Below are positions 20,989 through 58,317 of a stretch of DNA of 64,000 nucleotides, one piece after another. Source of the stretch: Bombella mellum (GTDB lineage Bacteria; Pseudomonadota; Alphaproteobacteria; Acetobacterales; Acetobacteraceae). Both the position numbers and the translations under genes were made by a program. The stretch covers positions 1-64,000 of the forward strand of contig NZ_PDLY01000006.1 of assembly GCF_014048465.1 (NCBI RefSeq), written 5' to 3'. Positions within the stretch are counted from its first letter, which is position 1; each line of letters opens with the position of its first letter. The notes beneath the pieces were generated by a model. That model was not told where the DNA came from. It did not search any database and saw only the letters and a program-made list of their open reading frames with translations.

Positions 20989-22134
20989 TCACCTCCCGGC
21001 GAGACCCCGCCCAAAACGGGCCACTGCGCACTCCACATCACCTGCCGAGGTAAAACGTCCTACCGACAGACGCAAGCTTCTACGTGCCTCCGCATCCGTC
21101 AGCCCCATCGCCTTCAGGACATAGGACGGGGCCCCGGATGCCGCCGAGCAGGCCGAACCCGATGAAAAGGCAACCCCCGGCACGGTGGCCATGACCTGCC
21201 GGGCTTCCAGCCCGGCGGACAGGCACACGTTCAGCACACCCGGCAGCCGTGGAGCGGAGGCTCCGTTGCAGCGGGCCGCCGGGAACAGCTGCCGCATACC
21301 CTGCCACAGCCTCTCCCGCAAGTCCGCAAGCCGTTCCGCCTCGGCCTCCCGGTGCTCCATGACCAGCCTGGCCGCCATCCCCATGCCGATGGTCAGCGGG
21401 ACCGGGAGAGTACCGGAGCGCAGGCCACGCTCCTGCCCCCCACCGGACAGCAGGGGCACCAGCCGCACACGGGGCCGCCGCCGGACATACAGGGCACCGA
21501 TCCCCTTGGGGCCATACATCTTGTGGGCCGAGAACGAGGCGAGATCGACCCCTTCCAGCGGGCAGGGCAGCCGGGCGAACATCTGGGCCATGTCCACATG
21601 CAGCAGGGCACCGGCCTGCTTCACCAGCGGCATGAGACGGCCAAGGTCCTGCACCACACCCGTCTCGTTGTTCGCCGCCATGATGCTGACCAGCAGCGTG
21701 GGCGTCGCCAGAGCCTCCGCCAGACGCTCCGGCAGCAGGCGGCCATCCGGCTCCACCGGCAGTATGACAGGCTCGAAGCCCTCCCTTTCCAGAGACCGCA
21801 CGGTCTCCAGAACGCATCTGTGCTCCGTTGCCACGGTGATGATGCGCCGCCGCCCATCGCCCTGCTCCTTCAGGAAACGGGCAGCTCCCTTGATGGCCAG
21901 ATTGTTGGCCTCCGTGGCACCGGAGGTCCATGTCAGCTCCTGCGGACTGACGGAAAGGGCCTCGGCCAGCATGTCCCTCGCCCGCTCCACGGCCTCCTCG
22001 GCCTGCCGCCCCGGCAGATGCAGGCTCCCCGCATTGGCGGGGTGCTGCGTGAACCACGGGAGCATGGCCTCCATGACGGCAGGGTCACAGGGCGTCGTGG
22101 CAAGATAATCCAGATAGATCACCTCATCCTTCAT
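20989..22134 (-). CDS. Cysteine desulfurase (IscS/NifS family), second of two
   Basis: This PLP enzyme takes sulfur from cysteine to form an enzyme persulfide for Fe-S clusters and tRNA thiolation. It shows YLDYLATTPCDPAVMEAM, ATEANNLAIKG, the PLP lysine in FSAHKMYGPKG, and the persulfide cysteine loop SSGSACSAASGAPSYVL. The length is 381 residues. Its start codon lies inside one copy of a 27-base tandem duplication shared with the end of the preceding desulfurase gene. The two enzymes are related but clearly diverged, so this is not a recent gene duplication. Confidence 0.92.
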   Translation of the reverse strand: MKDEVIYLDYLATTPCDPAVMEAMLPWFTQHPANAGSLHLPGRQAEEAVERARDMLAEALSVSPQELTWTSGATEANNLAIKGAARFLKEQGDGRRRIITVATEHRCVLETVRSLEREGFEPVILPVEPDGRLLPERLAEALATPTLLVSIMAANNETGVVQDLGRLMPLVKQAGALLHVDMAQMFARLPCPLEGVDLASFSAHKMYGPKGIGALYVRRRPRVRLVPLLSGGGQERGLRSGTLPVPLTIGMGMAARLVMEHREAEAERLADLRERLWQGMRQLFPAARCNGASAPRLPGVLNVCLSAGLEARQVMATVPGVAFSSGSACSAASGAPSYVLKAMGLTDAEARRSLRLSVGRFTSAGDVECAVARFGRGLAGR

Positions 22135-22178
22135 GCGTCACCGGCCCTCCCTATCCTTCATGCGTCACCGGCCCTCCC
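22126..22178. repeat. 27-base tandem duplication at the junction of the two desulfurase genes
   Basis: The unit starting ATCCTTCATGCGTCACCGGC occurs at 22126 and again at 22153 (26 matching bases). One copy holds the stop of the upstream gene and the other holds the start of the downstream gene. With a single copy, the two genes would overlap by a few codons and keep the same protein ends. Confidence 0.9.
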
Positions 22179-23365
22179 CACATGGGCGTCGGCCTTTTCA
22201 GGAGGCCACGCTCGGCAAACCGCCGGGCCATGAGACCATAGGCACGCCCGAAGGACCGGACATCCCCTGCCCTGACATTCCAGGGCAGGGACACACGGAT
22301 GGCCTGCCCGGCCGCCTCTCCCTGCCCCATGGCCTCCAGAACGTGGGACCGGGCCACCTTGCCGGACGAACAGGCCGAACCGGCCGAGACGCAATAGCCC
22401 TCGATGTCCAGTGCCATGAGCTGCATCTGGGCCGCCACGCCGGGCAGCACGGCACTGACCGTATTCGGCAGGCGGGCCGCCCCATGCCCCATGATGATGA
22501 CCCCGGCTTCCACCATGACGGCCTCCAGCTCGTCCCGAAGGGCTGCCAGCACGCTCCAGTCCTGCATCCGGCTGTCCTCAAGGGCGGCGGCCATGCCCAT
22601 ATGGGACGCAAGGGCCGGGGTGCCCCCACGCCGGCCCCGTTCCTGCCCGCCACCGGGCAGCAGAGGAGCCAGGGGCCTGTCCTCCGGCAGCAGCAGGGCA
22701 CCGGCTCCCTTGGGGCCACCCATCTTGTGGGCAGACAGGGCCAGGCTGGCCCCGGCCAGGGACCCATCCTTCAGGGCCAGCGAGAACTCGTCCTGCTCCT
22801 GCATCCGCCCTGCAGCCTGCACGGCATCCACATGGAGAAAGGCTCCATGCTGACGGCACAGGGCCGCCACATCCCGCAGCGGCGCATGGACGCCCGTCTC
22901 GTTGTTCGCCGCCATGATGCAGACCAGCGGCCCCGGCCCGTCGCCTGCCGCCCCGTGGGCCACCAGCATGGCCTCCAGGGCCGCACGGTCGATCACACCC
23001 TGCCCGTCCACGGGAATCAGTCCGGCCTCCGGGACCGCCCTGCGGATGGCGTCATGCTCCGTGGCTCCCACGAGGATGCAGCGACCCTCCGCACGCCCCA
23101 AGGCATGCAGGGCAAGCGTATCTGCCTCCGTTCCCCCTGACGTGAAGACACAGCCATCCGCCTCCCGCCCGAAAGCAGCAGCAATCCGGCGGCGGGCCTC
23201 CTCCAGCATGATGCGGGTCTTCCGTCCGGCCGCATGAACGGATGCGGGGTTTCCCGTCTGCTCCAGACCGGCCAGCATGGCCTCCCGTGCGGCTGGCCGC
23301 AGAGGCTCCGTTGCATTGGCATCCAGATAGACCGGGCCTTCCCGCAGAGATGTTCCCTGAACCAC
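22151..23365 (-). CDS. Cysteine desulfurase (NifS/IscS family), first of two
   Basis: This is a second group I cysteine desulfurase of 404 residues: YLDANATEPLRPAAREAM, GGTEADTLALHAL, the PLP lysine in LSAHKMGGPKG, and persulfide loop SAGSACSSGKVARSHVL. The start is probably the GTG at 23365 after a GGGGGAG. It is the first gene of the minus-strand run desulfurase-desulfurase-fdx-mnmA. In Alphaproteobacteria, a NifS-like gene is commonly found next to an alpha/beta hydrolase, as here. Which of the two enzymes feeds clusters and which feeds tRNA thiolation cannot be told from sequence. Confidence 0.9.
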   Translation of the reverse strand: MVQGTSLREGPVYLDANATEPLRPAAREAMLAGLEQTGNPASVHAAGRKTRIMLEEARRRIAAAFGREADGCVFTSGGTEADTLALHALGRAEGRCILVGATEHDAIRRAVPEAGLIPVDGQGVIDRAALEAMLVAHGAAGDGPGPLVCIMAANNETGVHAPLRDVAALCRQHGAFLHVDAVQAAGRMQEQDEFSLALKDGSLAGASLALSAHKMGGPKGAGALLLPEDRPLAPLLPGGGQERGRRGGTPALASHMGMAAALEDSRMQDWSVLAALRDELEAVMVEAGVIIMGHGAARLPNTVSAVLPGVAAQMQLMALDIEGYCVSAGSACSSGKVARSHVLEAMGQGEAAGQAIRVSLPWNVRAGDVRSFGRAYGLMARRFAERGLLKRPTPMWGGPVTHEG

Positions 23366-24411: not shown

Positions 24412-26568
24412 ATGACCGACATATCGCTCAAAAGCCCGTTCCTGCGGGAAGCCAAGGCCCGCGGGATGATCTTCCAGTGCACCGACTTCGAGGCACTGGA
24501 CGAGCTGATGCAGGCAGGCCCCATCACGGCCTATATCGGTTTCGACCCCACGGCAGACTCCCTGCATGTGGGCAATGCCATGTCGATCATGATGCTGCGG
24601 CTGCTCCAGAAGCACGGGCACAGCCCCATCGCCCTGATTGGCGGCGGCACGGCGAAGATCGGTGATCCGTCCTTCCGTGATGAGGCCCGCTCCCTGATGA
24701 CGGACGAGACCATCGCCCACAACCTTGCCGGGCTGCGGGCCTCTCTGGGGCAGTTCCTGGATTTTGAGGATGGCAGCTGCCGTCTCGTCAACAATGCGGA
24801 CTGGCTGGACAGGCTCTCCTACATCAGCCTGCTTCAGGATGTCGGGGTGCAGTTCTCCGTCAGCCGGATGCTTTCCTTCGAGAGCGTGAAGCAGCGGCTG
24901 GACCGTGAGCAGGGGCTGACTTTCCTCGAGTTCAACTATTCCATCCTTCAGGCGTTCGACTTCCGGGAGCTGTACCGCCGCCACGGGGCCATTCTCCAGA
25001 TGGGCGGGTCCGACCAGTGGGGCAACATCGTCTCTGGCATCGACCTGGCCCGCCGCACGGATGGGGCACGCCTGTTCGGGCTGACGACACCGCTTGTCAC
25101 CACCTCCTCCGGGGCCAAGATGGGCAAGTCAGCCAACGGGGCCGTGTGGGTCCGCAAGGAGCGGCGGCCTGTCTTCGATTACTGGCAGTTCTGGCGCAAC
25201 ACCGAGGATGCCGACGTGGGCCGCTTCCTGAAGATGTTCACGGACCTGCCCGTGGAGGAATGTGAGCGTCTCGGTGCGCTGGAAGGGGCGGAAATCAACG
25301 AGGCCAAGAAGATTCTGGCCACCGAGGCCACGGCCATCTGCCACGGCCGTGAAGCTGCCGAGGAAGCCGCCGAGACCGCCCGCAAGATGTTCGAACAGGG
25401 CAAAATAAAAAGCAACGTTCAGACCGCCCTACCAGAAGTGACTCTGCCCACCAGCCTGTTTGCCGAAGGCATCCCTGCCTTCAGGCTCTTTGCGGAGGCC
25501 GGACTGGCCGCCAGCGGTGGCGAGGCCCGCCGCCTCATCCGTGGTGGGGGTGCCCGGCTAAATGATGTCGTCATCAAGGATGAAAATGAACTCATCACGG
25601 TAGCGAAGCTAGCAAAATCGGAACTATTACTAGAAATAATAGACCCACTAGACTTGGTGGGTCTTATGGACTTGGCTAACATTTTGGGCCTAGTCTATCC
25701 ACTGTACAAAAATTCAAGAAAAGCCAGTAAAGAGCTCCACGAGAAGATGTATAATAATATCACTAAGAAAGCCAAAATTCCTCTAGGAAATGCTGCACGC
25801 TACCTCTTGTACAAAACAAATGTAATCTGCGAAGATATACACGCCCCCCAGAAGACCCTACTGAAGAACCCCGATATCCTATTAAACATTTTGAAGCTAC
25901 TAATAGGATTGAACCTAGAAGAACTAGTGAAACACACGGAAAGCGTACTGAATACCTTTTCTCAAAATAAGTCTCCCTTTACGGAAATGAACCCTACGCC
26001 TTTCAAATACTATGCGCAGATTACGCCTAAGGCATCCGCCAAATGGAAGGCTAGGCTTTCTGGCCTGATTAACGGCAACAAGCCATCAAAACTCGAAACA
26101 AGGAATAGAGAGATCATAATTTACAACCTATTCGGGCCAGAATGGCTATCAATGCCCTGCAATCCTAATAGAATAAATAAAAAATTTTCTAATGAAGAGA
26201 TGATTTCTTCGTCCCTAGTTTATGCCGGACTGATAAAACTACTGAAACCGGAGATATCTGTAAAAGAAAAATCAAAAATAATAACACAATTACAGAAAAT
26301 TTCAGATGAATTAACTTCTCTCATTTACAAAAATAAGCACTCCTCAAAAACAGGTTCAACTGTCAAGGAAGGCATATCCCGTAACCTCACCTGTAATGAG
26401 TGCTCCTCAAAAACAGGTTCAACCGTCAAAGAAGACGTATCCCGTAACCTCACCTATGCAGAAACCATTCATAGGAACAACCAGCCTCTCCCACTAGAAG
26501 AACTGATGAACAGTACAATAAAACTATCTTCCGGCAAGAAGAAGCACATCCTCATCCGGATGGAGTAA
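24412..26568 (+). CDS. tyrS: Tyrosyl-tRNA synthetase with about 300-residue insertion in the S4 domain
   Basis: TyrS charges tRNA-Tyr. Residues 1 to about 335 are a normal catalytic core: [16 protein letters not shown] (HIGH motif at His52), the GGSDQWGNI tyrosine/tRNA pocket, and KMGKS at 236-240. The S4 RNA-binding domain begins normally ([34 protein letters not shown], to about residue 398) and its expected last strand is present at the extreme C-terminus ([18 protein letters not shown], residues 701-718). Between these lie about 300 residues encoded by visibly AT-rich DNA with different codon use. Subtracting the insert gives about 418 residues, the normal TyrS length. The frame is open throughout, so the insert is either translated within the enzyme or removed afterwards. 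No other tyrS is in the window. Confidence 0.93.
25606..26514 (+). other. AT-rich in-frame insert inside tyrS (unknown function)
   Basis: Boundaries are approximate (by codon use and homology, roughly residues 399-700 of the fused frame). The encoded segment is rich in Lys, Asn, Leu and Ile and looks mostly helical; it starts [20 protein letters not shown] and ends in a 21-residue duplicated unit. No conserved enzymatic motif was recognised. It lacks a Cys/Ser at the N-junction and a His-Asn at the C-junction, so it does not fit a canonical intein. Early in the insert, 25641-25664 is a perfect 8-base inverted repeat (AGACCCAC/GTGGGTCT). Composition points to acquisition from an AT-rich source. 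Confidence 0.8.
26337..26462 (+). repeat. Two tandem 63-base repeats within the tyrS insert
   Basis: Two adjacent 63-base units (26337-26399 and 26400-26462) differ at about ten positions and encode the 21-residue repeat containing [10 protein letters not shown] and SRNLT twice. The period is a multiple of three, so the frame is preserved. Confidence 0.9.
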
Positions 26569-26597
26569 CATCAGCCCCGGCAGGCAGAACGGAAGAA

Positions 26598-26623
26598 ACA
26601 TGGCAGCACGATAACTGCCATGT
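26598..26623. terminator. Hairpin between tyrS and the convergent heparinase-like gene
   Basis: ACATGGCAG pairs with CTGCCATGT around an eight-base loop, 30 bases past the tyrS stop. There is no strong T run, so termination is likely but not certain. Confidence 0.5.
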
Positions 26624-26642
26624 TCAGCATTCCTGAAGCCAC

Positions 26643-28292
26643 TTACAGCGGCACATGCTCCAGCACCCACTCGACCCTCTGCTGGCGTCTGGGGGGCTTA
26701 ACCGCCCTGCTGCTGCCAGACCCGGCCGCCTCTTCGCCTGTAGGAGCAGGCAGGTCACGGCCTGCACAGGCCCGGACGATGATCTGGGACGTCTGCTCAG
26801 GGGCACACCGCCCCATGTAGAAATCGTCCTCCAGGGCGATCACGCCTCCCGTCTGCCGGAAACGCCATATCTCCGAGGGAGCATGAAGGATGATCTCCTC
26901 ATCCTCCCGCTCCACCCGCACGTCCGGATGGACATGGAACCGCAACGTGAAGGGCACGTCACTCTCCCCCTCCACCGTGTCACAGCCTCTCAGCTCCTCC
27001 CCGGAAGGTTCCAGAAACAGGGACCGGTGCCAGATGACCCCGTGGGACGGGTAATAGCCGTTCTGGGACATGTGCACCTCCTGCACACGGCCCTGACGCC
27101 TCTGCTTGCAGCGCACCTGTGAAGGACGGCGGGTCACATGCCCGTCAGCCCCGACATCGGACGACGACTCCCCGTCCACGACCAGAACCGTATGGGCAGC
27201 CGAACTGCGCAGGGCACGCTGCCAGGCCCCTCCCTCTGCCGCACCGCAATTGACGAACAGACGCTGCCGGTGATGGGAAAATTCGAACGACATCGTCCCG
27301 GCATGGGCCAGACGGTCCATTCCATGCGGGGCCGGAGCCGCCACGTCGGCCAGAAGCAGGGACCGCCCGGCCGTCATGCGGACGAACCCGCCCTTGCGCA
27401 GGCTGGACGCCACGACCCTGTAACGCTCCGCCTGTTCCAGAAGCTCCAGAACGGCCTTTTCCCCCCGCTCCTGCGAACCATTGAACAGGGCCAGCCCTCC
27501 ATCCCCGTGACAGAAGGCCCGCAGCACGGCACAGGCCCGCCCCAGCATGACAGGCACGCAGTCCGGCGGCATCCACTGCAACGTGGTGAACATTCCCTGA
27601 ATGGCGGTAAGCTGCTGCACGCAGCGATACTGGGCCTCCGGGCTGCGTTCGGCCACGATGCCGTCCTCTCCCAGAAGCCGCCCCAGCTCCAGCGGAAGCT
27701 GCTGCTCGAACCGTTTGAAAAAGCCGTCATAATGCGGCACGGCCATATAGACGGCCAGCAGTCCCCTCAGCACGGCCAGCCCCTCCCAGCCTATGGGAGG
27801 CAGGGGCAACAGGGCCGAAAGGCGGCGGGCTTCCTTCACGGCGGCATCCAGAACCAGCTGCTGCGTCCCTTCCGTGGCCGTGGAAAGGCAGAACTCGTAG
27901 TGCCCCAGCCAGTTGGAGAGCCGCCGCCCCATCACGCCACTTTCCCGGGCGACCGGATCAGCCGGAGGACGATCAGCCCATGACGCCACCATGGACCGGG
28001 CCAGAAGGCGGGCACCGTTGGTGCCGAAGGTCCGCAGGTCCCTCAGCCAGTCGAACCCATAGAACCAGCGACGCACCTCCACGGGCCAGCTGTTGCTCTG
28101 CCAGACACCACGCAAGGGAAGACTGTAGGTCTTCTGGGCGAAACGGAACACGCCACCTATCAGCAGTGCCCCCTGGTCCACGTCCCCTTCTTCCCTGTCC
28201 TGATAGAGGCAGACAGGGCTTGCCTCCCCATGCTGCCGCTGGGGCAGGGAGACGAGCATCAGCCTGAAATACCGCCGGTAGGAGTTAAACAA
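26643..28292 (-). CDS. Heparinase II/III family protein
   Basis: This 549-residue protein has an N-terminal all-helical toroid region (containing WQSNSWPVEVRRWFYGFDWLRDL and HYEFCLSTATEGTQQLVLDAAVKEARRL). A C-terminal beta-sandwich follows (MSFEFSHHRQRLFVNCGAAEGGAWQRALRSSAAHTVLVVDGESSSDV), the segment typical of the alphaproteobacterial heparinase II/III-like family, which usually sits beside rpe, rsmB and purH. Family enzymes cleave acidic polysaccharides by elimination; the substrate of this subgroup is unknown. No signal peptide is visible. It lies three bases after rpe. Confidence 0.85.
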   Translation of the reverse strand: MFNSYRRYFRLMLVSLPQRQHGEASPVCLYQDREEGDVDQGALLIGGVFRFAQKTYSLPLRGVWQSNSWPVEVRRWFYGFDWLRDLRTFGTNGARLLARSMVASWADRPPADPVARESGVMGRRLSNWLGHYEFCLSTATEGTQQLVLDAAVKEARRLSALLPLPPIGWEGLAVLRGLLAVYMAVPHYDGFFKRFEQQLPLELGRLLGEDGIVAERSPEAQYRCVQQLTAIQGMFTTLQWMPPDCVPVMLGRACAVLRAFCHGDGGLALFNGSQERGEKAVLELLEQAERYRVVASSLRKGGFVRMTAGRSLLLADVAAPAPHGMDRLAHAGTMSFEFSHHRQRLFVNCGAAEGGAWQRALRSSAAHTVLVVDGESSSDVGADGHVTRRPSQVRCKQRRQGRVQEVHMSQNGYYPSHGVIWHRSLFLEPSGEELRGCDTVEGESDVPFTLRFHVHPDVRVEREDEEIILHAPSEIWRFRQTGGVIALEDDFYMGRCAPEQTSQIIVRACAGRDLPAPTGEEAAGSGSSRAVKPPRRQQRVEWVLEHVPL

Positions 28293-28970: not shown

Positions 28971-29138
28971 GTAACCTCCATGTAAAGAAATCAGAACAGG
29001 TATTCGCATTTAATATTGGCAGAATGAGGGTTTTTTACAAGAGAATCCGGGCCTTTCCCCCAATCCTGCGGGCGGATGTGAAAGAAACGTGAAAGAAAAT
29101 GGACACGCCCCCCCTCATCTGCTAACGAAAGGCCTGTT

Positions 29139-29231
29139 CCGAGGGGTGCCTTCACCATGCAAGGCTGAGAGGGTGGGTTCAGCTCATCCAACCCTTTGAA
29201 CCTGATCCGGTTCGTACCGGCGAAGGGACAG
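29139..29231 (+). promoter_or_regulatory. TPP (thiamine pyrophosphate) riboswitch
   Basis: The THI-box core is intact: GGGGTGCC (29143-29150), GGCTGAGA (29163-29170), and ACCCTTTGAACCTGATCCGG followed by TACCGGCGAAGGGA (29191-29228). It begins about 190 bases before the TonB receptor ATG in the same direction. Downstream, 29250-29259 contains GGGACGTCCC, which may be part of the expression platform. High TPP is expected to switch the operon off. Confidence 0.95.
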
Positions 29232-29325
29232 GAAAACAGCACGGAACGGGACGTCCCCTTCATCTCCCCTGAACTGACGCCTGCACAGCGAACCTTCACC
29301 ATCGTGCTCCGAAGGCGAAGATTCC

Positions 29326-31725
29326 ATGCGCTCATTTTTTTCCAGCCGCAAGACGGCCCCTCTCTTTCTGCTCCTGTGCAGCCCTGGCTGGGCACTGGCA
29401 GAATCAGGAAAACAGCCCCAGCAGTCCACACCCCACCATCCTCCTGTCAGGCCGCCCGCCCATGCCGGACAGGCAAAGGCCGTACAGGCCCGGAAGGTGG
29501 AGTACCTCACCACCCGGGCGGTCCCCGAGGCCGTGCAGCGTGGCGGCGGGCTGATCCAGCCCCAGCATGGCACGCAGTCCATCAGCGAGGTGGGCCGCAG
29601 CTACATGGACATACAGGCCCCCACGGCCTCGGCCTTCCAGCTCGTGTCCATCCTGCCGGGTGCCAATGTCGTGACGTCCGACCCCTTCGGCATCTCGCCC
29701 AACACCAACATCAGCGTCCGTGGCCTGAACGGTGATGCCCTGGGCTATGTGCTGGAGGGAATGCCACTCAATGACATCGCCGCCTATGGCGGATACCCCA
29801 ACCAGTTCGCCGATACGGAGAATTACAGCAAGGTCGGCCTCCAGCAGGGATCGGCCGATCTGGACAGCCCTGTCCTCAACGCCGCAGGCGGGCTGATGAA
29901 GCTCTCCTTTCTCGACCCGTCCCTGAAGCCCGGCGGCCTCGCCTCCTTCTCCTACGGGTCCTTCAACACACGGCGGGGCTTCATCCGGCTGGAAACCGGG
30001 GAAATGGGCAACAGCGGCATGAGGGGCTTCGTCTCCTACTCCAACACCCATACGGACAACTGGCGCAGCGGCGGCCATGACACCCGCCAGCACATTGATT
30101 TCCGGCTCCTCAAGGAATGGGGACAGGGAAACCAGGCGGGCATTCTGGGGTCATGGAACAGGGCCGACACCAGCTACTACCCTTTCACCTCCCTTGAGGA
30201 CTGGAAAAGTTCCGGCACCCGCAGCGGTCGGCTGACCAGGCATTTCGAACCCGGGGAGAACAGCACGAACTACTGGCGGCTTTCCCGTGATCCGGAAGAA
30301 ACGCTCTATGTCGGGGCACCGGTGCACCTGCATTTCAGCCAGCGTCTGTCCTTCGACATCACGCCCTATGCCCAGCGTGCCTATGGCAACTTCCCCTCCG
30401 GCTCCACACTCTCCAGCACGGGGAACTATTACGGCACCCAGCCCGTTACCTCCCTGCCCGTGACGGACGGCCAGACCGTACGGGCCGACTACACCCAGCG
30501 CAGCTACCGCTCTGGCGTGAACATGGCCCTTCATGCCCGTTACAAGTGGAACGACTTCGTCATGGGCTACTGGTACGACTATTCGGACGACAACGAACCG
30601 CAGCCCTTCACGGCCGTCGGAAATGACGGTTCTGCCGCCAGCATCTGGGCCGACAGGAAACGCAGCCGCATCCTCATGCCGGATGGCAACCCCTATCTGG
30701 CCGGGGGCTTCCACACCATGTCCCAGACCAACGCCCTCTATGTGGGGGATCACATCTCCCTGATGCAGGACAGGCTGGTCATGGACATCGGCTTCAAGGA
30801 GGTCATGATGCACCGCTGGGGAACCAACGACGTACCCGGCCCGCAGCGCAACATCTCTAGCAACAGGCAGGAACCCCTGCCCCGTTTCGGAATGCGCTGG
30901 AACGTCACGAGGAAGGACCAGCTCTTCCTCAACGTGAACACCAACTTCCGGGCACCGGCCATCTCCACCTATTACAACAGCTATGCCGGTGTGGATGCCA
31001 ATGGCGTGCCCAACGGCACCATCAGCCGTACCGGGACCAACCGCCTGAAGAATGAATATTCCGTCTCCGAGGAATTCGGCTACCGCCGCACGGGAGACTG
31101 GCTGACGGCCAGCCTGACCTTCTTCAACTACAATTTCCGCAACCGGCAGATAGAGACGGGGGAAGCCACCAACCCCAACATCACCACGACCATCAATGCC
31201 GGGAAGCAGACCTCCCGTGGTGTGGATGTGGAACTCGGCACACGCCCCTGGCACCATATCAGCCCCTATGCGTCCTTCGAGTATCTCCATGCCACCATCG
31301 ACAGTGACATCTCCGCCGGGGCCGACACCCTGCCCACGGCGGGCAAGACAGCCGTCCGCAGTCCGCATTTCCAGGCGGGAGCGGGCCTGCGCTATGATGA
31401 CGGACATTTCTTCAGCATGATCTCCATGCGTTACATGAGCCATCAATATTCCACCTTCATGAATGACGAGCGCATCCCTGCCATCATGACGGCCGACCTG
31501 ACCCTTGGTTACCGCTTCAACAATGCGGGCTTCCTGCACCAGCCCACTTTGCGGCTGAACCTGAGCAACATCAGCAACCAGCGTTATCTGTCCGGCATCA
31601 ACTCCACCACACTGAATGCCCATGACACGACCGGCCTTCATGGCGGGCGGGTCAGCGGCTCGGCTCCGGGCTATTACATCGGGGCACCTTTCGCCGCCCT
31701 CGCCAGCCTGACGGCCGGGTTCTGA
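29326..31725 (+). CDS. TonB-dependent outer-membrane receptor, probable thiamine transporter
   Basis: This 799-residue protein has a signal peptide (APLFLLLCSPGWALA), a plug domain (ASAFQLVSILPGANVVTSDPFG, ISVRGLNGDALGYVLEGMPLND), then a long beta-barrel rich in Tyr, Asn and Gly ending in an aromatic-terminated strand (ALASLTAGF). It matches TonB-dependent receptors in general. The thiamine specificity is inferred from the TPP riboswitch directly upstream and from the kinase and PnuT-type transporter downstream. The kinase start codon follows two bases after this stop. Confidence 0.88.
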   Translation: MRSFFSSRKTAPLFLLLCSPGWALAESGKQPQQSTPHHPPVRPPAHAGQAKAVQARKVEYLTTRAVPEAVQRGGGLIQPQHGTQSISEVGRSYMDIQAPTASAFQLVSILPGANVVTSDPFGISPNTNISVRGLNGDALGYVLEGMPLNDIAAYGGYPNQFADTENYSKVGLQQGSADLDSPVLNAAGGLMKLSFLDPSLKPGGLASFSYGSFNTRRGFIRLETGEMGNSGMRGFVSYSNTHTDNWRSGGHDTRQHIDFRLLKEWGQGNQAGILGSWNRADTSYYPFTSLEDWKSSGTRSGRLTRHFEPGENSTNYWRLSRDPEETLYVGAPVHLHFSQRLSFDITPYAQRAYGNFPSGSTLSSTGNYYGTQPVTSLPVTDGQTVRADYTQRSYRSGVNMALHARYKWNDFVMGYWYDYSDDNEPQPFTAVGNDGSAASIWADRKRSRILMPDGNPYLAGGFHTMSQTNALYVGDHISLMQDRLVMDIGFKEVMMHRWGTNDVPGPQRNISSNRQEPLPRFGMRWNVTRKDQLFLNVNTNFRAPAISTYYNSYAGVDANGVPNGTISRTGTNRLKNEYSVSEEFGYRRTGDWLTASLTFFNYNFRNRQIETGEATNPNITTTINAGKQTSRGVDVELGTRPWHHISPYASFEYLHATIDSDISAGADTLPTAGKTAVRSPHFQAGAGLRYDDGHFFSMISMRYMSHQYSTFMNDERIPAIMTADLTLGYRFNNAGFLHQPTLRLNLSNISNQRYLSGINSTTLNAHDTTGLHGGRVSGSAPGYYIGAPFAALASLTAGF

Positions 31726-52012: not shown

Positions 52013-54997
52013 TCAGCTGCGGCATTTCATGCTCATGAAAATATCGGCCAGCCGTTCGACGGGCAGGCCCAGCGGCACGAGCTGCCCCCAGTCCGGCCCC
52101 GCCTGCCGGATGCGCTCCGCAGAAGCCCCTATGTCGAACCCGACCACGGCCAGCCGTGCCCGCCACAGCCAACCCAGCGTATAGCACCATGTCTCGGGAG
52201 CTATGGATGACACAAATCCGACATCAGCCTGCATGGCCCGGAGTGCGGGAAGCACGTTCCGGTCATCATAAGGACCCGTCACCTCTATGCCAGCATCAAG
52301 ACAGGCGGCATCATCATGCGTGCCGCCCATCAGGATCAGGCGCAGGGGCAGGGCTTCCTGCTGGACGTGCCTTCCCAGTGACAGAAAGACGTCATAGCCT
52401 TTCCAGCGGCTGATCCCGCCCAGCACCACCACCTTCAGCGGCCGCTCCCGTGTCGGTGGCCTGTCACCCCTTACGGGTGGCGGCCCCGCCCTGATCTGCC
52501 GGTCATCTTCAAGCGGTTCGATCCCAACCGGCGGCAGCCCCGGCATGTGACGTTCCAGCCGACGGGCGGCATCCTGCGAAGGCGCAATGACACGGCGGGC
52601 CTGTCCCAGCTCCGCAGCCGAACGGGCCAGAAAATCGGGCAGGGACAGACCTTCATCAGCAGGTGCGTTTCCCCGGGCCACACAGGCCTCACATCCCCGC
52701 AGGGGAGGTTCCCCACAATAGCGGCCATGCTCATCCAGCAGCGCAATGCGGGGGCAGAACCAGATGTGATCATGCACATGAATGTCATACGGCACGCCCA
52801 GCTGACGGTGCAGCTCACGCAGGCCGGGTTCATGACCCAGCATGTGGTGCCAGACGACCAGCCTCACGCCCATCTCCTTCAGAAAGGCCAGCAGGAGTGG
52901 CCTCTCATCGGGCAGATCGAAGATCATGTTGGGCACGGCCAGTCCCTCGACGGGGCTGACGACCCTGCATCCCTTCTCTGTGGGTTCCAGAATGAGGGAC
53001 AGGCAGTTCTCCTGCCCCAGCCGGGCCGCCTGTTCCTTCACGGCACGGGCCACGCCGCCCCCGCCCCGATGCTGGAACAGGACCACAGCCCCGGAAAAGC
53101 CCTCCCGGTGACGCCCCAGCCGCTGCCAGTCCAGCCTCCTGCGATATGCCCGCAGGGGATTCACCTTCTTCCACTGCCGGATGGCAGCATCATACCCGGG
53201 ATACAGGCGGTTCAGTATGTCGAGATTGCGGAGCAGAAGAGGAGAAGCCTCCGCCCCGAAAGAACAGTGTCCATGATGCAGGACATAGACATCCAGGGCC
53301 ACAAGATGACGGAAACCGGCCTCGCTGGCCCTGAGGCAGAACTCGTTCTCCTCCGCATAACCCTGGGCAAAGAAGGCCCTGTTCAGTCCCCCCATCTCTG
53401 CCAGACAGGCGGCCGATATGCCCATGCAGAACCCGTTGGCCGTGGGCAGCGTGACTTCCGGCATGAGGCCCTCCGCCTGGCTCCGGAACAGCCCGTCCAG
53501 AGCCTCGGCTTCCACCTGAGCCGGGGCAGGATTGTCACGATTGCGGGACGGATAGGCCGTCAGCCCTCCGGCATTGGAAAAGGGCGTGACCGTTCCGACC
53601 TTCTCACGGCGCAGCCAGCGGCACATGCGGTCCACCCAGTCACCGAACACCAGCGTGTCACTATTCAGCAGGATGACATCCCACCCTAGAGGAACATGGG
53701 CCAGCCCCGTGGTGATGCTGGCGACAAAGCCGCCATTTTCTCCGTGGCGGTGCAGTTCGATGCGCCCCGCTCTGGCCAAATCATCAAGATGGTCCCGCAG
53801 TCCCCTCTCGGGCGACGCATCATCCACGACGATGATGCGGCAGGCAGCCGGAACGGTGGCCATGACACTGTCCAGACAGGCCCTCACCACATCCTCGCCC
53901 CGATAGACCGGGATGATGATGGCGCAGCCGGATGCTGGCCGTACTGTAATGACTTCACTCCCTGCCCGCCGCACCGCCGCACGACAGCCCTGTCGTGTCC
54001 AGCCCTTCCGCCCGCTGCCTGCCGCTTCCGGCAGCCGCATCAGGTTCACGAGCGCAGGGTCAAGAGGAGCCCCCATGAGCAGACGCCCATACTGGTCATG
54101 CAGACGGGTTGGCAGGCTCATGAACCGGGGCCAGTCCGCATGGGGCAGGAAGAAACCACGGGGACGTTGCAGAAGGGCCGTGCTGCTGAAACCTTCGGCG
54201 GGCGTGTCAACCTTCAGAGGAGCCTCATGCCCTTCCACCCACAGGGACGAGAGAAAATCCGGCTCCCCAGGATACCACAGCCAGCCCCGCACGCCCTGTT
54301 CCTCGGCCGTCACCAGAGACTGGCACCGTATCACGCTCTGAATGTCGACAGGGCTGCCCAGCAGGGACTGGCCATCACAGGTCGCCGTCAGCCGCTGTCC
54401 CCGCCACCAGGGACCGACTTCAGCCGGAACCAGCTCGGCCATGTCATACAGCCCCGCCGTCAGGCGGCCCAGCGGCCTGCCATCCAGAGCCAGCTCCACC
54501 TGCCCGCCCGTCCGCAGCCAAAGCTCTCCACTATTGGAAAGAACCACCCATCCCGGCACTCCGGCCGGAAAGGACAGGCTGTCCGCCAGCGCATGATGGT
54601 CCACCGCCAGACTGTTACGGGACATGACCTGCCCCATGACGTGAAGAGCCTCCGCCGTCCGCCCTCCACGGAAATAGCCTCCCGCAAGAGCCAGCCCCGC
54701 CTCCCGGACACCATGCTGCGCCCAGAGCGCATCCAGTCGGGGCAGGGCCTGCTGGACATCGCCCTCTTCCAGAAGGGTCACGGCACAGATGAAACTGATG
54801 TTGTCATCACGCCCCGAAAGGGCCTCGGCCCGCCTGAGCCAGAACAGGCCATCCGTCCGCCTGCCCTGTTTCAGACAGGCCATTCCCTGATCGAAAGCCT
54901 CCCGGATGGTTTCCATGTGCCGGATTTTCCAGCGGGCTTCCTCCTGCGGACGATAGAAACGGCCATATCCCGGAATGAAGCTGGCCTGCCGTCTCAC
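52013..54997 (-). CDS. Fused GT2-GT4 glycosyltransferase with N-terminal TPR-like region
   Basis: This 994-residue protein has three parts. Residues about 35-140 are a helical TPR-like region (EAFDQGMACLKQGRRTDGLFWLRRAEALSGRDD). Residues about 355-610 are a GT2 domain (CAIIIPVYRGEDVVRACLDSVMATVPAACRIIVVDDASPERG and LLNSDTLVFGDWVDRM, with a FFAQGYAEENEFCLRA acceptor loop). The remainder is GT4-like (VVWHHMLGHEPGLRELHRQL, VVVLGGISRWKGYDVFLSLGRHV, VSSIAPETWCYTLGWLWRARLAVVGFDIG). It overlaps the Sel1 gene by four bases (GTGA), implying coupling. It probably assembles a surface glycan or decorates a secreted protein. Confidence 0.85.
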   Translation of the reverse strand: MRRQASFIPGYGRFYRPQEEARWKIRHMETIREAFDQGMACLKQGRRTDGLFWLRRAEALSGRDDNISFICAVTLLEEGDVQQALPRLDALWAQHGVREAGLALAGGYFRGGRTAEALHVMGQVMSRNSLAVDHHALADSLSFPAGVPGWVVLSNSGELWLRTGGQVELALDGRPLGRLTAGLYDMAELVPAEVGPWWRGQRLTATCDGQSLLGSPVDIQSVIRCQSLVTAEEQGVRGWLWYPGEPDFLSSLWVEGHEAPLKVDTPAEGFSSTALLQRPRGFFLPHADWPRFMSLPTRLHDQYGRLLMGAPLDPALVNLMRLPEAAGSGRKGWTRQGCRAAVRRAGSEVITVRPASGCAIIIPVYRGEDVVRACLDSVMATVPAACRIIVVDDASPERGLRDHLDDLARAGRIELHRHGENGGFVASITTGLAHVPLGWDVILLNSDTLVFGDWVDRMCRWLRREKVGTVTPFSNAGGLTAYPSRNRDNPAPAQVEAEALDGLFRSQAEGLMPEVTLPTANGFCMGISAACLAEMGGLNRAFFAQGYAEENEFCLRASEAGFRHLVALDVYVLHHGHCSFGAEASPLLLRNLDILNRLYPGYDAAIRQWKKVNPLRAYRRRLDWQRLGRHREGFSGAVVLFQHRGGGGVARAVKEQAARLGQENCLSLILEPTEKGCRVVSPVEGLAVPNMIFDLPDERPLLLAFLKEMGVRLVVWHHMLGHEPGLRELHRQLGVPYDIHVHDHIWFCPRIALLDEHGRYCGEPPLRGCEACVARGNAPADEGLSLPDFLARSAAELGQARRVIAPSQDAARRLERHMPGLPPVGIEPLEDDRQIRAGPPPVRGDRPPTRERPLKVVVLGGISRWKGYDVFLSLGRHVQQEALPLRLILMGGTHDDAACLDAGIEVTGPYDDRNVLPALRAMQADVGFVSSIAPETWCYTLGWLWRARLAVVGFDIGASAERIRQAGPDWGQLVPLGLPVERLADIFMSMKCRS

Positions 54998-56799
54998 GAG
55001 CCGGTTTCACCCTCCTGCCGCTCATGGGATGACATTCCGGAAAAACCGTCCAGCAGCTCCTGCGCCTGCTCCACATCCTGATCCGCCGCCTGCTGGAGCC
55101 AGTACCGGGCCTGTTCCTCGTCCCGGGGGCCTCCCAGCCCCTTGAGCAGGTAGCGGCCGAACATCATCTGGGACAGGCCATGACCACGCTGTGCCGCCTC
55201 CTCGAAATAGTCACGGGCCTTCGGCAGGTCCGGCTGTATGTCGTGGCCCCCACCATACATGGCCCCGAGTGAGAAATAGGCCTCCGTCAGCCCCTCGTCA
55301 GCCGCCGTCTGGTAGAGTTCCAGTGCCCGGGCATGATCCTTCACGCCATCCACCTGACCCGTCACGAGCATCTGGGCCACGCTGACGCAGGCTTCCGGCA
55401 GCCCCTTGCGGGCGGCCTTGTCCATCCATGTCAGGCCGGCCTGCATGTCCTGGGCTACCCCACGTCCTTCGAACAGCATGCGGCCATACCAGTACTGGGC
55501 ATTCACGACACCATCCCGGGCCAGACCAAGCCAGTAGAACGCCTTCGCCTCATCCGGCACTCCCCCGACGCCCTGCGCCAGGCAAACTCCCAGATTGAAC
55601 GCCCCGAGCGGATTCCCGCCCTCGGCCTGCCGCCTGAGCCGCTGCTGAAGGCTGCGCTGCTCCTCATCCGGGCGGGCCACACCGGCAAGGACCAGATTGC
55701 CAAGGTCCGCATCGGCCAGATGGTCACCCAGCATCGCCGCATGATTGAACCAGAACGCCGCCTTGCGCTCGTCCCGTGGCACGCCCGTGCCTGTCAGATA
55801 CAGGACGGCAAGGGCACGGGCGGCTGGCGTGTGCTGCTGCTCCGCCGCAAACTCGTACCAGCGGGCGGCCTCCATCGGGCGGCGGAACAGCTCCTCACCA
55901 CGGATATACAGGTCCCCCAGCAGGGCCGCCGCCTCGGCATCGCCGCCATAGGCCGCCTTGCGCAGCCAGCTTTCGGCCCGTATGGCGTTGGCCTCCTCCA
56001 CCCCGACGCCCTTCAGGAGCATGAGCCCGTAACGGGCCTGAGCGGAGGGAATGTCCTGTTCTGCGGCCTTCAGATAATAGGCCGCCGCCCTGTACGCATC
56101 ACGGCCCTGGCCACTGGCCCCATGCTCGTAAATCCAGCCCATGGCGGCACTGGCCAGCCCCAGATCACCTTCATCCGCCGCACGCTGGAGCAGCTCCACG
56201 GCCTGGGCCTGCTGGCTCTCATCCTCGGCATCATCCAGCAGAATCAGCCCCAGACCAAGGGCACCCTGCATGGAACCGCCACGGACGGATTCCCCGTACC
56301 AGTGGCGAGCGGCCTGCCTGTCCTGAATCCCTTCCGGCCCGTGATTGAAGATATGCCCCAGCAGGGCCTGCGCCTCGACATGCCCGGCCGTGGCACTCTT
56401 CTCCGCCCAGAAGCGGGCCTGGACAAAGTCCGGCTGATAGGTGTCAACGGCCTCGGCCCGGGCATGGTCATACAGCCCCGCACCACCTGCCACAGACAGG
56501 GACGGGTCGAACCCTTCCGGCACTCCCATGGCGAACAGCGTCGCCAAGGTGAAGCTGGCCTCCGGGATGCCTGCCTCCGCCGCACGATAGGTCCAACGTG
56601 CCCCTTCCTCCAGCGAGGCGGCCGTCCCCTGGCCGGAAAGATAGCACTGCCCGACCCTGTAGGCGGCCTCCGGCATCCCGGCATTGGCCAGCTTCGCAAA
56701 CAGGGAGAAGGCCTGCGGGGCCTTTCCGACCTCCAGCAGCCGCAGGCCACGGCTGAGCCTGCGGGAACGGGAAACAAAAAAGGCCAGTCTGCGTACCAT
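54994..56799 (-). CDS. Sel1-repeat (TPR-like) protein
   Basis: This 601-residue protein consists almost entirely of Sel1-like helical repeats, recognisable as AxxxLGxxYxxGxGVxxDxxxAxxWYxxAA units (for example AAYRVGQCYLSGQGTAASLEEGARWTYRAAEAGIPEASFTLA, EAQALLGHIFNHGPEGIQDRQAARHWYGESVRGG). There is no clear signal peptide; the N-terminus is basic. Sel1 proteins act as protein-protein scaffolds. Here it sits between a type I secretion pair and a glycosyltransferase, so a chaperone or assembly role for the exported product is plausible. Confidence 0.85.
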   Translation of the reverse strand: MVRRLAFFVSRSRRLSRGLRLLEVGKAPQAFSLFAKLANAGMPEAAYRVGQCYLSGQGTAASLEEGARWTYRAAEAGIPEASFTLATLFAMGVPEGFDPSLSVAGGAGLYDHARAEAVDTYQPDFVQARFWAEKSATAGHVEAQALLGHIFNHGPEGIQDRQAARHWYGESVRGGSMQGALGLGLILLDDAEDESQQAQAVELLQRAADEGDLGLASAAMGWIYEHGASGQGRDAYRAAAYYLKAAEQDIPSAQARYGLMLLKGVGVEEANAIRAESWLRKAAYGGDAEAAALLGDLYIRGEELFRRPMEAARWYEFAAEQQHTPAARALAVLYLTGTGVPRDERKAAFWFNHAAMLGDHLADADLGNLVLAGVARPDEEQRSLQQRLRRQAEGGNPLGAFNLGVCLAQGVGGVPDEAKAFYWLGLARDGVVNAQYWYGRMLFEGRGVAQDMQAGLTWMDKAARKGLPEACVSVAQMLVTGQVDGVKDHARALELYQTAADEGLTEAYFSLGAMYGGGHDIQPDLPKARDYFEEAAQRGHGLSQMMFGRYLLKGLGGPRDEEQARYWLQQAADQDVEQAQELLDGFSGMSSHERQEGETGS

Positions 56800-56814
56800 G
56801 ACGGATCCTTCGTC

Positions 56815-58317
56815 TCAGGAAGGCTCTCTCATGCCCTCTGTTGCCGCCGGCACCGCACGACTGAACAGGTAGTTCAGGATTGTCCGCTTGCCAACATCAA
56901 TATCAGCCGTCACAGGCATACCTGCGCTGGGATGGAAGAAAGACGGCTGACCATGCAGGGTATATTTGTCAATTTTCAGCCTGACACGATAGAAAAGAAC
57001 GGAGTTGCCCTCCTTGAGGATGGCTGACGGGTCAATCCCGGCCCTAATGTTTCCTTCGACCATCTCCGGTGGCAGGAACGTGTCCGCACTGATGAGATGG
57101 ACCGTGCCCTCCGCCCCGCCATACTGGGCATAGGGGAAGCTGGAGAACTTGATGATGGCATGATGGCCCTGCCGCACATAGGCACTGTCCTGCGGACTCA
57201 TGATGGCTTCCACCTCCAGCCCGCTTGCCGTCGGCTCCAGCGTCACCACGCGCAGGGTCGGGGCCACCATCGCCCCGACGGAAATGGGAGCGACCGTCAG
57301 CACGACGCCATCAGCCGGTGCCCGCAGGTCGATCTCCTTCTGCTGCACACGCCCCTTGCGATACTCGCTTCTCAGCTGGTCCAGCCGCCTCTGCCCCGTC
57401 ACGAGCATGCCGTACACCTTCGTCTTCCAGCTCTGGACATAGCTCTCCCGCAGGGCACGGAGGGCATCAAGACGGTTCTGTGTCCCGCCAGCCGTCTGCT
57501 GGGCAGAGATCAGTGCCCGCTCCGTATCCATCAGGGCATCCTGTGCCCCGAGGGTGGACAGGCGTGACCCCACCTCTTCCTTCTGCTCACGCTCCCTCAT
57601 GTCCAGCACGGCCTGGGTGACCCTCAGCTTGCTGGCATACATGGCGGCACTTCCACGGGCCGCCTGGAGGTCGTTCTGCATCCCGGCGATGCGGCGGTCA
57701 AAATCCTGGATGTGGGCCTGATAGTCCGCCTTCATCTGGAGGAACAGCTGCTCTTCCTGAATGGAGGCAGGAACGTTCATGTCCGCATGATAGTCGACAT
57801 CAGCCGCCTGCGCCTTGAGCCGGGCCACTTCCGCCTGCTGGGATTCCATCTGGGCGGACAGGTTCTCCATGTCCACGTCACTCAGCGTCGGATCAAGCCG
57901 GACCAGCACCTGCCCCTTGCGGACATACTGCCCGACGGACACGTTGATGGACTTGACCTTCCCGGGGGCGACAGGCTGCACGACCACGATCGGAGCCGTC
58001 GAAATAATCCGCCCCGTGACCGTCACGACCTTGTTGAGAGGGAAGAGGGCCATCGCCAGCACGCTGGCCAGCACGAGTGACCCGATGAGCCACGTGATGT
58101 AGCGGGCCGAGGCCGTCATGGGCAGGTTGACCATCCCCAGCGTGGGAGAATGGAACTCCAGCAGGGCCACGGGCATGTCATTGGGAGCGAAGGGATCGTC
58201 AGCCTTGCGTGGCCCCTTCAGGTTGTCCCCGTCCTCCAGCACCTGCTCGCCCTGCTGAGGGGTCTCCTGTCTGGCAGGCTTTGCGGGTCCGGTGCTTGGC
58301 TCTTTTCTCTCACGCAT
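56815..58317 (-). CDS. HlyD family periplasmic adaptor of a type I secretion system
   Basis: This is a membrane-fusion protein of about 500 residues. It has a cytoplasmic N-terminal tail, one membrane helix (ARYITWLIGSLVLASVLAMALF), a lipoyl half motif (VVQPVAPGKVKSINVSVGQYVRKGQVLVRLDP), a long coiled coil, the second lipoyl half (DLRAPADGVVLTVAPISVGAMVAPTLRVVTLEP), and a C-terminal HlyD-type beta domain (SFFHPSAGMPVTADIDVGKRTILNYL). The start ATG overlaps the stop of the ABC gene as TGATG, so the pair is coupled. A TolC partner is not encoded next to it. Confidence 0.92.
   Translation of the reverse strand: MRERKEPSTGPAKPARQETPQQGEQVLEDGDNLKGPRKADDPFAPNDMPVALLEFHSPTLGMVNLPMTASARYITWLIGSLVLASVLAMALFPLNKVVTVTGRIISTAPIVVVQPVAPGKVKSINVSVGQYVRKGQVLVRLDPTLSDVDMENLSAQMESQQAEVARLKAQAADVDYHADMNVPASIQEEQLFLQMKADYQAHIQDFDRRIAGMQNDLQAARGSAAMYASKLRVTQAVLDMREREQKEEVGSRLSTLGAQDALMDTERALISAQQTAGGTQNRLDALRALRESYVQSWKTKVYGMLVTGQRRLDQLRSEYRKGRVQQKEIDLRAPADGVVLTVAPISVGAMVAPTLRVVTLEPTASGLEVEAIMSPQDSAYVRQGHHAIIKFSSFPYAQYGGAEGTVHLISADTFLPPEMVEGNIRAGIDPSAILKEGNSVLFYRVRLKIDKYTLHGQPSFFHPSAGMPVTADIDVGKRTILNYLFSRAVPAATEGMREPS

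Follow-up and report, generated by a model that had tools for sequence, protein, structure and literature searches.

An orphan 298-codon in-frame segment in the S4 domain of a Bombella tyrosyl-tRNA synthetase, a probable lineage-specific insertion seen in a single genome

Introduction

Inteins are in-frame insertions in essential genes, with HINT motifs that include TxxH and a C-terminal His-Asn. Aminoacyl-tRNA synthetases are reported to be among the preferred hosts of inserted domains (PMC13114784). The apicoplast tyrosyl-tRNA synthetase (TyrRS) of Plasmodium is an active enzyme of the bacterial type that contains insertions of 19 and 56 residues with no known role, one of them 30% Asn (PMC6310243). 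In CYT-18, the fungal mitochondrial TyrRS, Ins 3-5 are located in and beside the S4-like C-terminal domain, and their presence correlates with a new RNA role, splicing (PMC4275181). Foreign DNA is also found in frame within coding genes in Rickettsia, where the palindromic elements are described as about 150 bp long, palindromic and repeated in many genes (PMC10969869).

Here, we describe tyrS of a bee-associated Bombella, located in a window of 64,000 nucleotides, i.e., the whole stretch of DNA that was analysed. As in inteins, the extra segment lies in frame in an essential gene and its excision would restore the normal length of the protein; in contrast to inteins, it has no intein motif or family match and its putative end is Met-Asn. 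Like the Plasmodium apicoplast enzyme, the protein is a bacterial-type TyrRS with a seemingly lineage-specific in-frame insertion. However, the Plasmodium insertions belong to the catalytic domain and the anticodon-binding domain, at sites conserved across eight species (PMC6310243), while here 298 residues are found in the S4 domain of one bacterium. With CYT-18 it shares what appears to be a lineage-specific insertion at an S4-like domain, but the insertions of CYT-18 are small, common to Pezizomycotina and linked to the splicing of group I introns (PMC4275181), and there is no known intron client here. Similarly, foreign DNA in frame is tolerated within a coding gene both here and in the Rickettsia palindromic elements; at 894 bp, as a single copy and with no terminal inverted repeat, the insert is nevertheless unlike those elements (PMC10969869) and unlike a MITE. 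The insert differs from these known cases in its size, its place and its occurrence in a single genome. In the open-licence PMC literature, no paper on the insert and none on Bombella together with tyrosyl-tRNA synthetase was found among the matches listed.

Organisation of the gene

The tyrS gene (24412-26568, +) is a single frame of 718 codons, encoding 718 residues with no internal stop. Along the frame, the full TyrRS catalytic core is followed by the start of the S4 domain, the extra codons, the end of the S4 domain and the stop codon, see Table 1. The NCBIfam model TIGR00234 (tyrS) matches residues 11-399 (E 1.2e-104), which identifies the protein as a TyrRS, and the Pfam match to the S4 domain at residues 361-396 (E 0.00094) is below its cut-off. 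The 16-residue tail was judged to be the S4 end by comparison with relatives. The KIKS insertion in the linker is absent from all ten other Bombella TyrRS in the alignment.

Table 1. Features of tyrS and of the segment inserted in it, in window coordinates
Feature	Position	Strand	Evidence
TyrRS catalytic core, residues 1-325	24412..25386	+	Pfam PF00579 E 8e-76; TIGR00234 E 1e-104; dN/dS 0.081 vs G334
Linker to S4 domain, including 4-residue lineage-specific insertion KIKS	25387..25461	+	Alignment vs 10 Bombella TyrRS
S4 domain, first part, residues 351-400	25462..25611	+	S4 Pfam match 361-396, dN/dS, AlphaFold
Orphan insert, 298 codons, residues 401-698, edges +/- few codons	25612..26505	+	Absent in relatives, no family, open-frame statistics
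Hairpin near insert 5' end, 8-nt perfect arms	25641..25664	+	Inverted-repeat search
Tandem duplication within insert, two 61-nt copies, spacing 63, 89% identical, frame-preserving	26332..26455	+	Repeat search
S4 end, residues 699-718	26506..26565	+	Alignment to C-terminus of relatives; AlphaFold strand 710-717

The gene is the sole tyrS in this Bombella genome, which is rated 100% complete with a contamination of 0.21. One other protein with PF00579 is encoded, on contig C9, and it was taken as a putative TrpRS. A second tyrS, which the initial annotation had named as a reason to doubt its own reading, was sought in the genome and not found. Its view of the locus as an essential single-copy gene with a foreign-looking in-frame module in the tRNA-binding domain, with no recognisable family, is supported.

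From the matched pieces of G334 (the closest relative) and of G273, the net insertion is 894 nt or 298 codons, and the protein lengths agree. The left homology extends to about Leu400 (25611) and the right homology restarts at about Met699 (26506), both edges being accurate to within a few codons. Along the frame, GC drops from about 62-65% to 34-40%, with 39% for the insert as a whole, bearing out the earlier description of about 300 unrelated, AT-rich codons inside the S4 domain. When the window is compared to the syntenic G334 contig, the 913 bases at 25587-26499 are the sole AT-rich unmatched stretch; the remaining five unmatched stretches of more than 80 bases have 57-66% GC.

Distribution of the insert

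All ten other Bombella genomes compared encode an ordinary TyrRS of 416-420 residues without the insert. More widely, 119 TyrRS loci were tried, of which 118 were readable, and the S4 end is ordinary in every one of these (the sets overlap, and some genomes occur twice). An extension already present in the TyrS of relatives, another reason for doubt named at the outset, was thus absent from both sets. The in-frame segment is missing from orthologues, as for a lineage-specific insertion in an aminoacyl-tRNA synthetase, and G334, with 95% identity over the TyrRS core, also lacks it, so the insert is perhaps young. The loop that holds it varies in length, being shorter in Acidocella and longer in L018. 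From these alignments, the insert appears to be a lineage-specific insertion in an aminoacyl-tRNA synthetase, seen in a single genome.

Searches with the insert protein returned the window itself and nothing else in the family (1 of 397 genomes), the order (1 of 395) and the phylum (1 of 398), these sets overlapping, and the one match in its own genome is the insert. At the class level, 6 of 385 genomes matched at E up to 0.05, again in overlapping sets: the window itself, and five more with E of 0.0035-0.034 and scores of 12.9-15.9 bits, which were taken as chance. With the insert DNA, other matches in the genus appear only from E 0.13 upward and span at most 36 nt. In phages and plasmids, tblastn gave no match at E up to 1; one phage record and one plasmid record from blastn, each covering 4% of the query (E 0.9 and 0.2), were also taken as chance.

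Among profiles, Pfam gave only matches below its cut-off (HNH_5 0.23, Wntless GOLD 0.08), NCBIfam only weak ones (oxidative damage protein 0.041, NrfB 0.15) and PHROGs four weak ones (0.0061, 0.017, 0.19 and 0.3). No PADLOC profile matched, nor did any PDB sequence at E up to 10. In the peptide-pattern scans, 4 stretches from IMG/VR and 38 from GTDB r220 fit a pattern and none of them encodes a relative of the insert; each scan used six 8-residue patterns and could thus reveal close relatives only, and records close to the window may be missing. In G031 and G072, alignments of the full protein cross a stop and extend as far as query residues 435 and 443. To see whether such inserts recur across the genome, about 350 kb of its 2.07 Mb was sampled; this sample contains further AT-rich stretches, mostly with short frames and some within long frames (L158, L167).

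Reading frame, composition and repeats

With a first-order Markov model of the insert, the probability that the frame at 25606-26510 is open by chance is about 1e-9, a stop being expected about every 15 codons, and the other five frames of the same stretch have 9-34 stops each. The codon periodicity is weak, as a value at least as high as the observed one arises in 35 of 2000 stop-free simulations; by thirds, the value is reached in 7, 404 and 353 of 1000 simulations, i.e., the signal is mainly in the first third. The residue composition has a chi-square of 30.3 against a random open frame (2000 simulations: mean 18.8, maximum 50.1), and by thirds its value is reached in 32, 264 and 272 of 1000 simulations. 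The other two forward frames deviate equally, with chi-squares of 30.9 and 34.1. Periodicity and composition are therefore only weakly gene-like. The earlier claim that selection keeps the frame open stands in part: the frame is open beyond chance, but the periodicity is weak and the composition no more deviant than in the other forward frames, and selection would be no more than an inference from the openness.

CTA codons are biased in phase, with 17 in frame vs 7 and 4 in the other two frames. CTAG is found 9 times in the 894 nt of the insert vs 5 expected, with 8 of the 9 in codon phase, and is scarce elsewhere: the remaining ~63 kb of the window have 8 vs 35 expected, and the ~350 kb sampled of the genome have 100. 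The excess in the insert may point to a donor in which CTAG is not avoided. The encoded protein (25606-26511) has a computed pI of 9.4 and a charge of about +14.

The two copies of the tandem duplication differ by two silent and five residue-changing differences, read by eye. The insert is single copy in its own genome; its inverted repeats are three short inner ones, and the repeat search found no terminal inverted repeat. The suggestion that it is a mobile selfish element gains no support from its single copy, its lack of a terminal inverted repeat and its lack of relatives. The RNA of the insert folds somewhat more stably than its shuffles, a suggestive but not decisive difference, with a z of -2.8 (60 shuffles) or -3.2 (20 shuffles), vs -2.4 to +1.1 for seven control stretches, and none of 60 dinucleotide shuffles and one of 60 codon shuffles are as stable.

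The flank of the insert

In the first ~950 nt of tyrS, most stretches are 93-99% identical to G334, with 89% in the initial 141 nt; in the last ~300 nt, the identity is 83-89%. These last ~300 nt are 79-84% identical to each of nine relatives, with G350 left out. G334 itself has 81-88% identity to the others at this end, and therefore the 3' end diverges fast in general. Directly downstream of tyrS, about 6.2 kb of extra DNA is present in five of the nine relatives and absent from four, and G350 ends at a contig edge. As the last ~300 nt are diverged and the 3' flank is variable, the insert probably arrived by recombination. The 3' end of tyrS would adjoin an exchange site, and on the sequence comparison the simplest history would be that the insert was imported together with the diverged end. 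A target-site duplication was also weighed, as the loop can be read from either flank. By hand count, the DNA of the left copy agrees with that of the right no better than chance, and the idea was dropped.

In the closest relative (G334:C6, ~52369-58139; L124, 5' end in L125), the DNA after tyrS encodes an MmeI-like methyltransferase that has a target recognition domain. A T5orf172/MUG113 protein is encoded there as well, as is a helicase-like protein whose Pfam match falls slightly short of the cut-off. The content of the cassette was read in G334 only, and the other four Bombella have extra DNA of similar size. The site 3' of tyrS is a candidate defence hotspot in Bombella.

Constraint and predicted structure

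The TyrRS core is under strong purifying selection. Against G334, dN/dS is 0.269 in the linker, 0.035 in S4 residues 351-388 and, from residue 389 onward, 0.237. This last value exceeds the range for G334 vs four others (0.04-0.14), and the S4 end beside the insert is thus less constrained here. TyrRS activity is implied because tyrS is single-copy. The tRNA-Tyr is identical to that of ten other Bombella, one of which is cut at a contig edge; an altered tRNA-Tyr as a partner of the insert was rejected, as the tRNA is unchanged.

The AlphaFold model of the full protein matches solved TyrRS structures. With 64 relatives, the confidence is mostly above 90 in the core, 91-95 for residues 341-400 and 80 for 401-410; it is 26-59 for 411-700, mostly helix, then 40 for 701-710 and 87 for 711-718. 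As in the alignment that it follows, the model places the S4 strand at residues 404-410, which conflicts with the DNA-based edge. We hold, by DNA homology, that the true S4 strand would be the one on the right flank of the insert. For the insert alone, the mean pLDDT is 35.7 and no fold is drawn.

Origin and nature of the insert

We favour, as a reasonably probable reading, a lineage-specific in-frame insertion, i.e., a 298-codon orphan segment in a working TyrRS. The insert site would be a length-variable loop just ahead of the last S4 beta-hairpin. The segment probably came from an unsampled lineage and could have entered Bombella with the diverged tyrS 3' end, by homologous recombination at the exchange site at the end of the gene. 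It would be translated as part of one chain of 718 residues, with the S4 fold closing around it, and might protrude from the tRNA-binding side as a basic appendage, probably helical or in part disordered. The enzyme would still charge the unchanged tRNA-Tyr, judging from its single-copy status and constraint. Our guess is that the enzyme most likely tolerates the appendage, or draws a mild benefit from it as an extra RNA contact or a protein-interaction surface. For this reading speak the single tyrS, the constraint on core and S4 domain, the whole-codon insertion with its open frame, the length-variable loop, the confident AlphaFold core, the basic pI, the drop in identity to G334 toward the 3' end of tyrS, the variable 3' flank and the unchanged tRNA-Tyr. 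Against it count the weak periodicity, the near-random composition, the differences between the repeats, the raised dN/dS at the S4 end, the RNA folding (z -2.8), the conflicting AlphaFold edge and the divergence of the 3' end in G334.

The insert could instead be functionless AT-rich DNA that by chance is in frame and is selected only against stops, since the S4 tail must be translated. Its weak codon periodicity, its near-random composition, its tandem-duplicated stretch without clear constraint and its lack of convincing homologues all fit passive DNA of this kind. However, a random segment of 298 codons would be open at arrival with a probability of only about 1e-9, so a passive segment would need an origin in coding DNA or growth in small steps; the phase bias of the CTA codons also argues against it, and we regard this origin as unlikely. 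As the insert is seen in one assembly only, an assembly artefact or chimera might also be suspected, but both junctions are in frame without a stop, the genome is complete by the rating given above with no other tyrS, and the divergence beside the insert site suggests a real evolutionary event; we regard an artefact as very unlikely.

Removal of the insert would give back a normal TyrRS length, and this could occur at the RNA level, by an unrecognised intron or a segment bypassed during translation, or in the protein. The stability of the RNA against both kinds of shuffles and the hairpin near the 5' edge would suit an RNA element that is removed or skipped before or during translation. On the other hand, one of the seven folding controls, the one at z -2.4, is part of tyrS itself, and an intron needs no open frame of 298 codons. 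No Rfam intron family matches up to E 5 over 25300-26800, where the only two matches, to a plant microRNA and to a snoRNA model, score well under the cut-off, and no intron family reaches gathering level in the 64-kb window. Excisions of exactly 894 nt were considered for start positions 25580-25644; the end bases of group I suit only two of them, both about 30 nt off the homology edge, and those of group II suit none. We consider such an RNA element highly improbable. For an intein-like module that cuts out residues 403-700 and leaves a TyrRS of normal length, the start at Ser403 and the end at Asn700 followed by Ser701 fit the chemistry by eye, but free boundaries make such an end pattern easy to find. 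TxxH is absent, Met and not His precedes the Asn, no intein family in Pfam or NCBIfam matches up to E 1, and the insert is predicted, at low confidence, to be helical rather than a beta-rich HINT fold. We give this module hardly any credence, and the post-translationally removed element proposed in the initial annotation is not supported, with no intein motif or family. A bolder idea is a self-removing module, acting as protein or RNA, that lacks the known intein or intron machinery, or, in a milder form, a new orphan RNA-binding domain that gives TyrRS a second job; we find it improbable.

If the lineage-specific insertion is true, a bacterial tRNA synthetase working with 298 unrelated residues in its tRNA-binding domain would be a striking natural domain insertion in an essential enzyme. 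It would mark a permissive site in the S4 domain of TyrRS and permit a direct test of orphan inserts as passengers, new domains or removable elements.

Other loci in the genome

One of the AT-rich loci in the genome sample (G000:C9:1-20000, L167) contains an open frame of 3159 residues, filamentous haemagglutinin-like by eye, followed by AT-rich DNA with several look-alike small ORFs. It could represent a contact-dependent inhibition locus that includes an immunity-like array. In the window, two adjoining ORFs at 20989-23365 (-) resemble, by eye, cysteine desulfurase (NifS/IscS type) paralogues. A TPP riboswitch (Rfam, 71.7 bits) at 29132-29246 is located upstream of an ORF of 799 residues (29326-31725) that is TonB-dependent receptor-like by eye.
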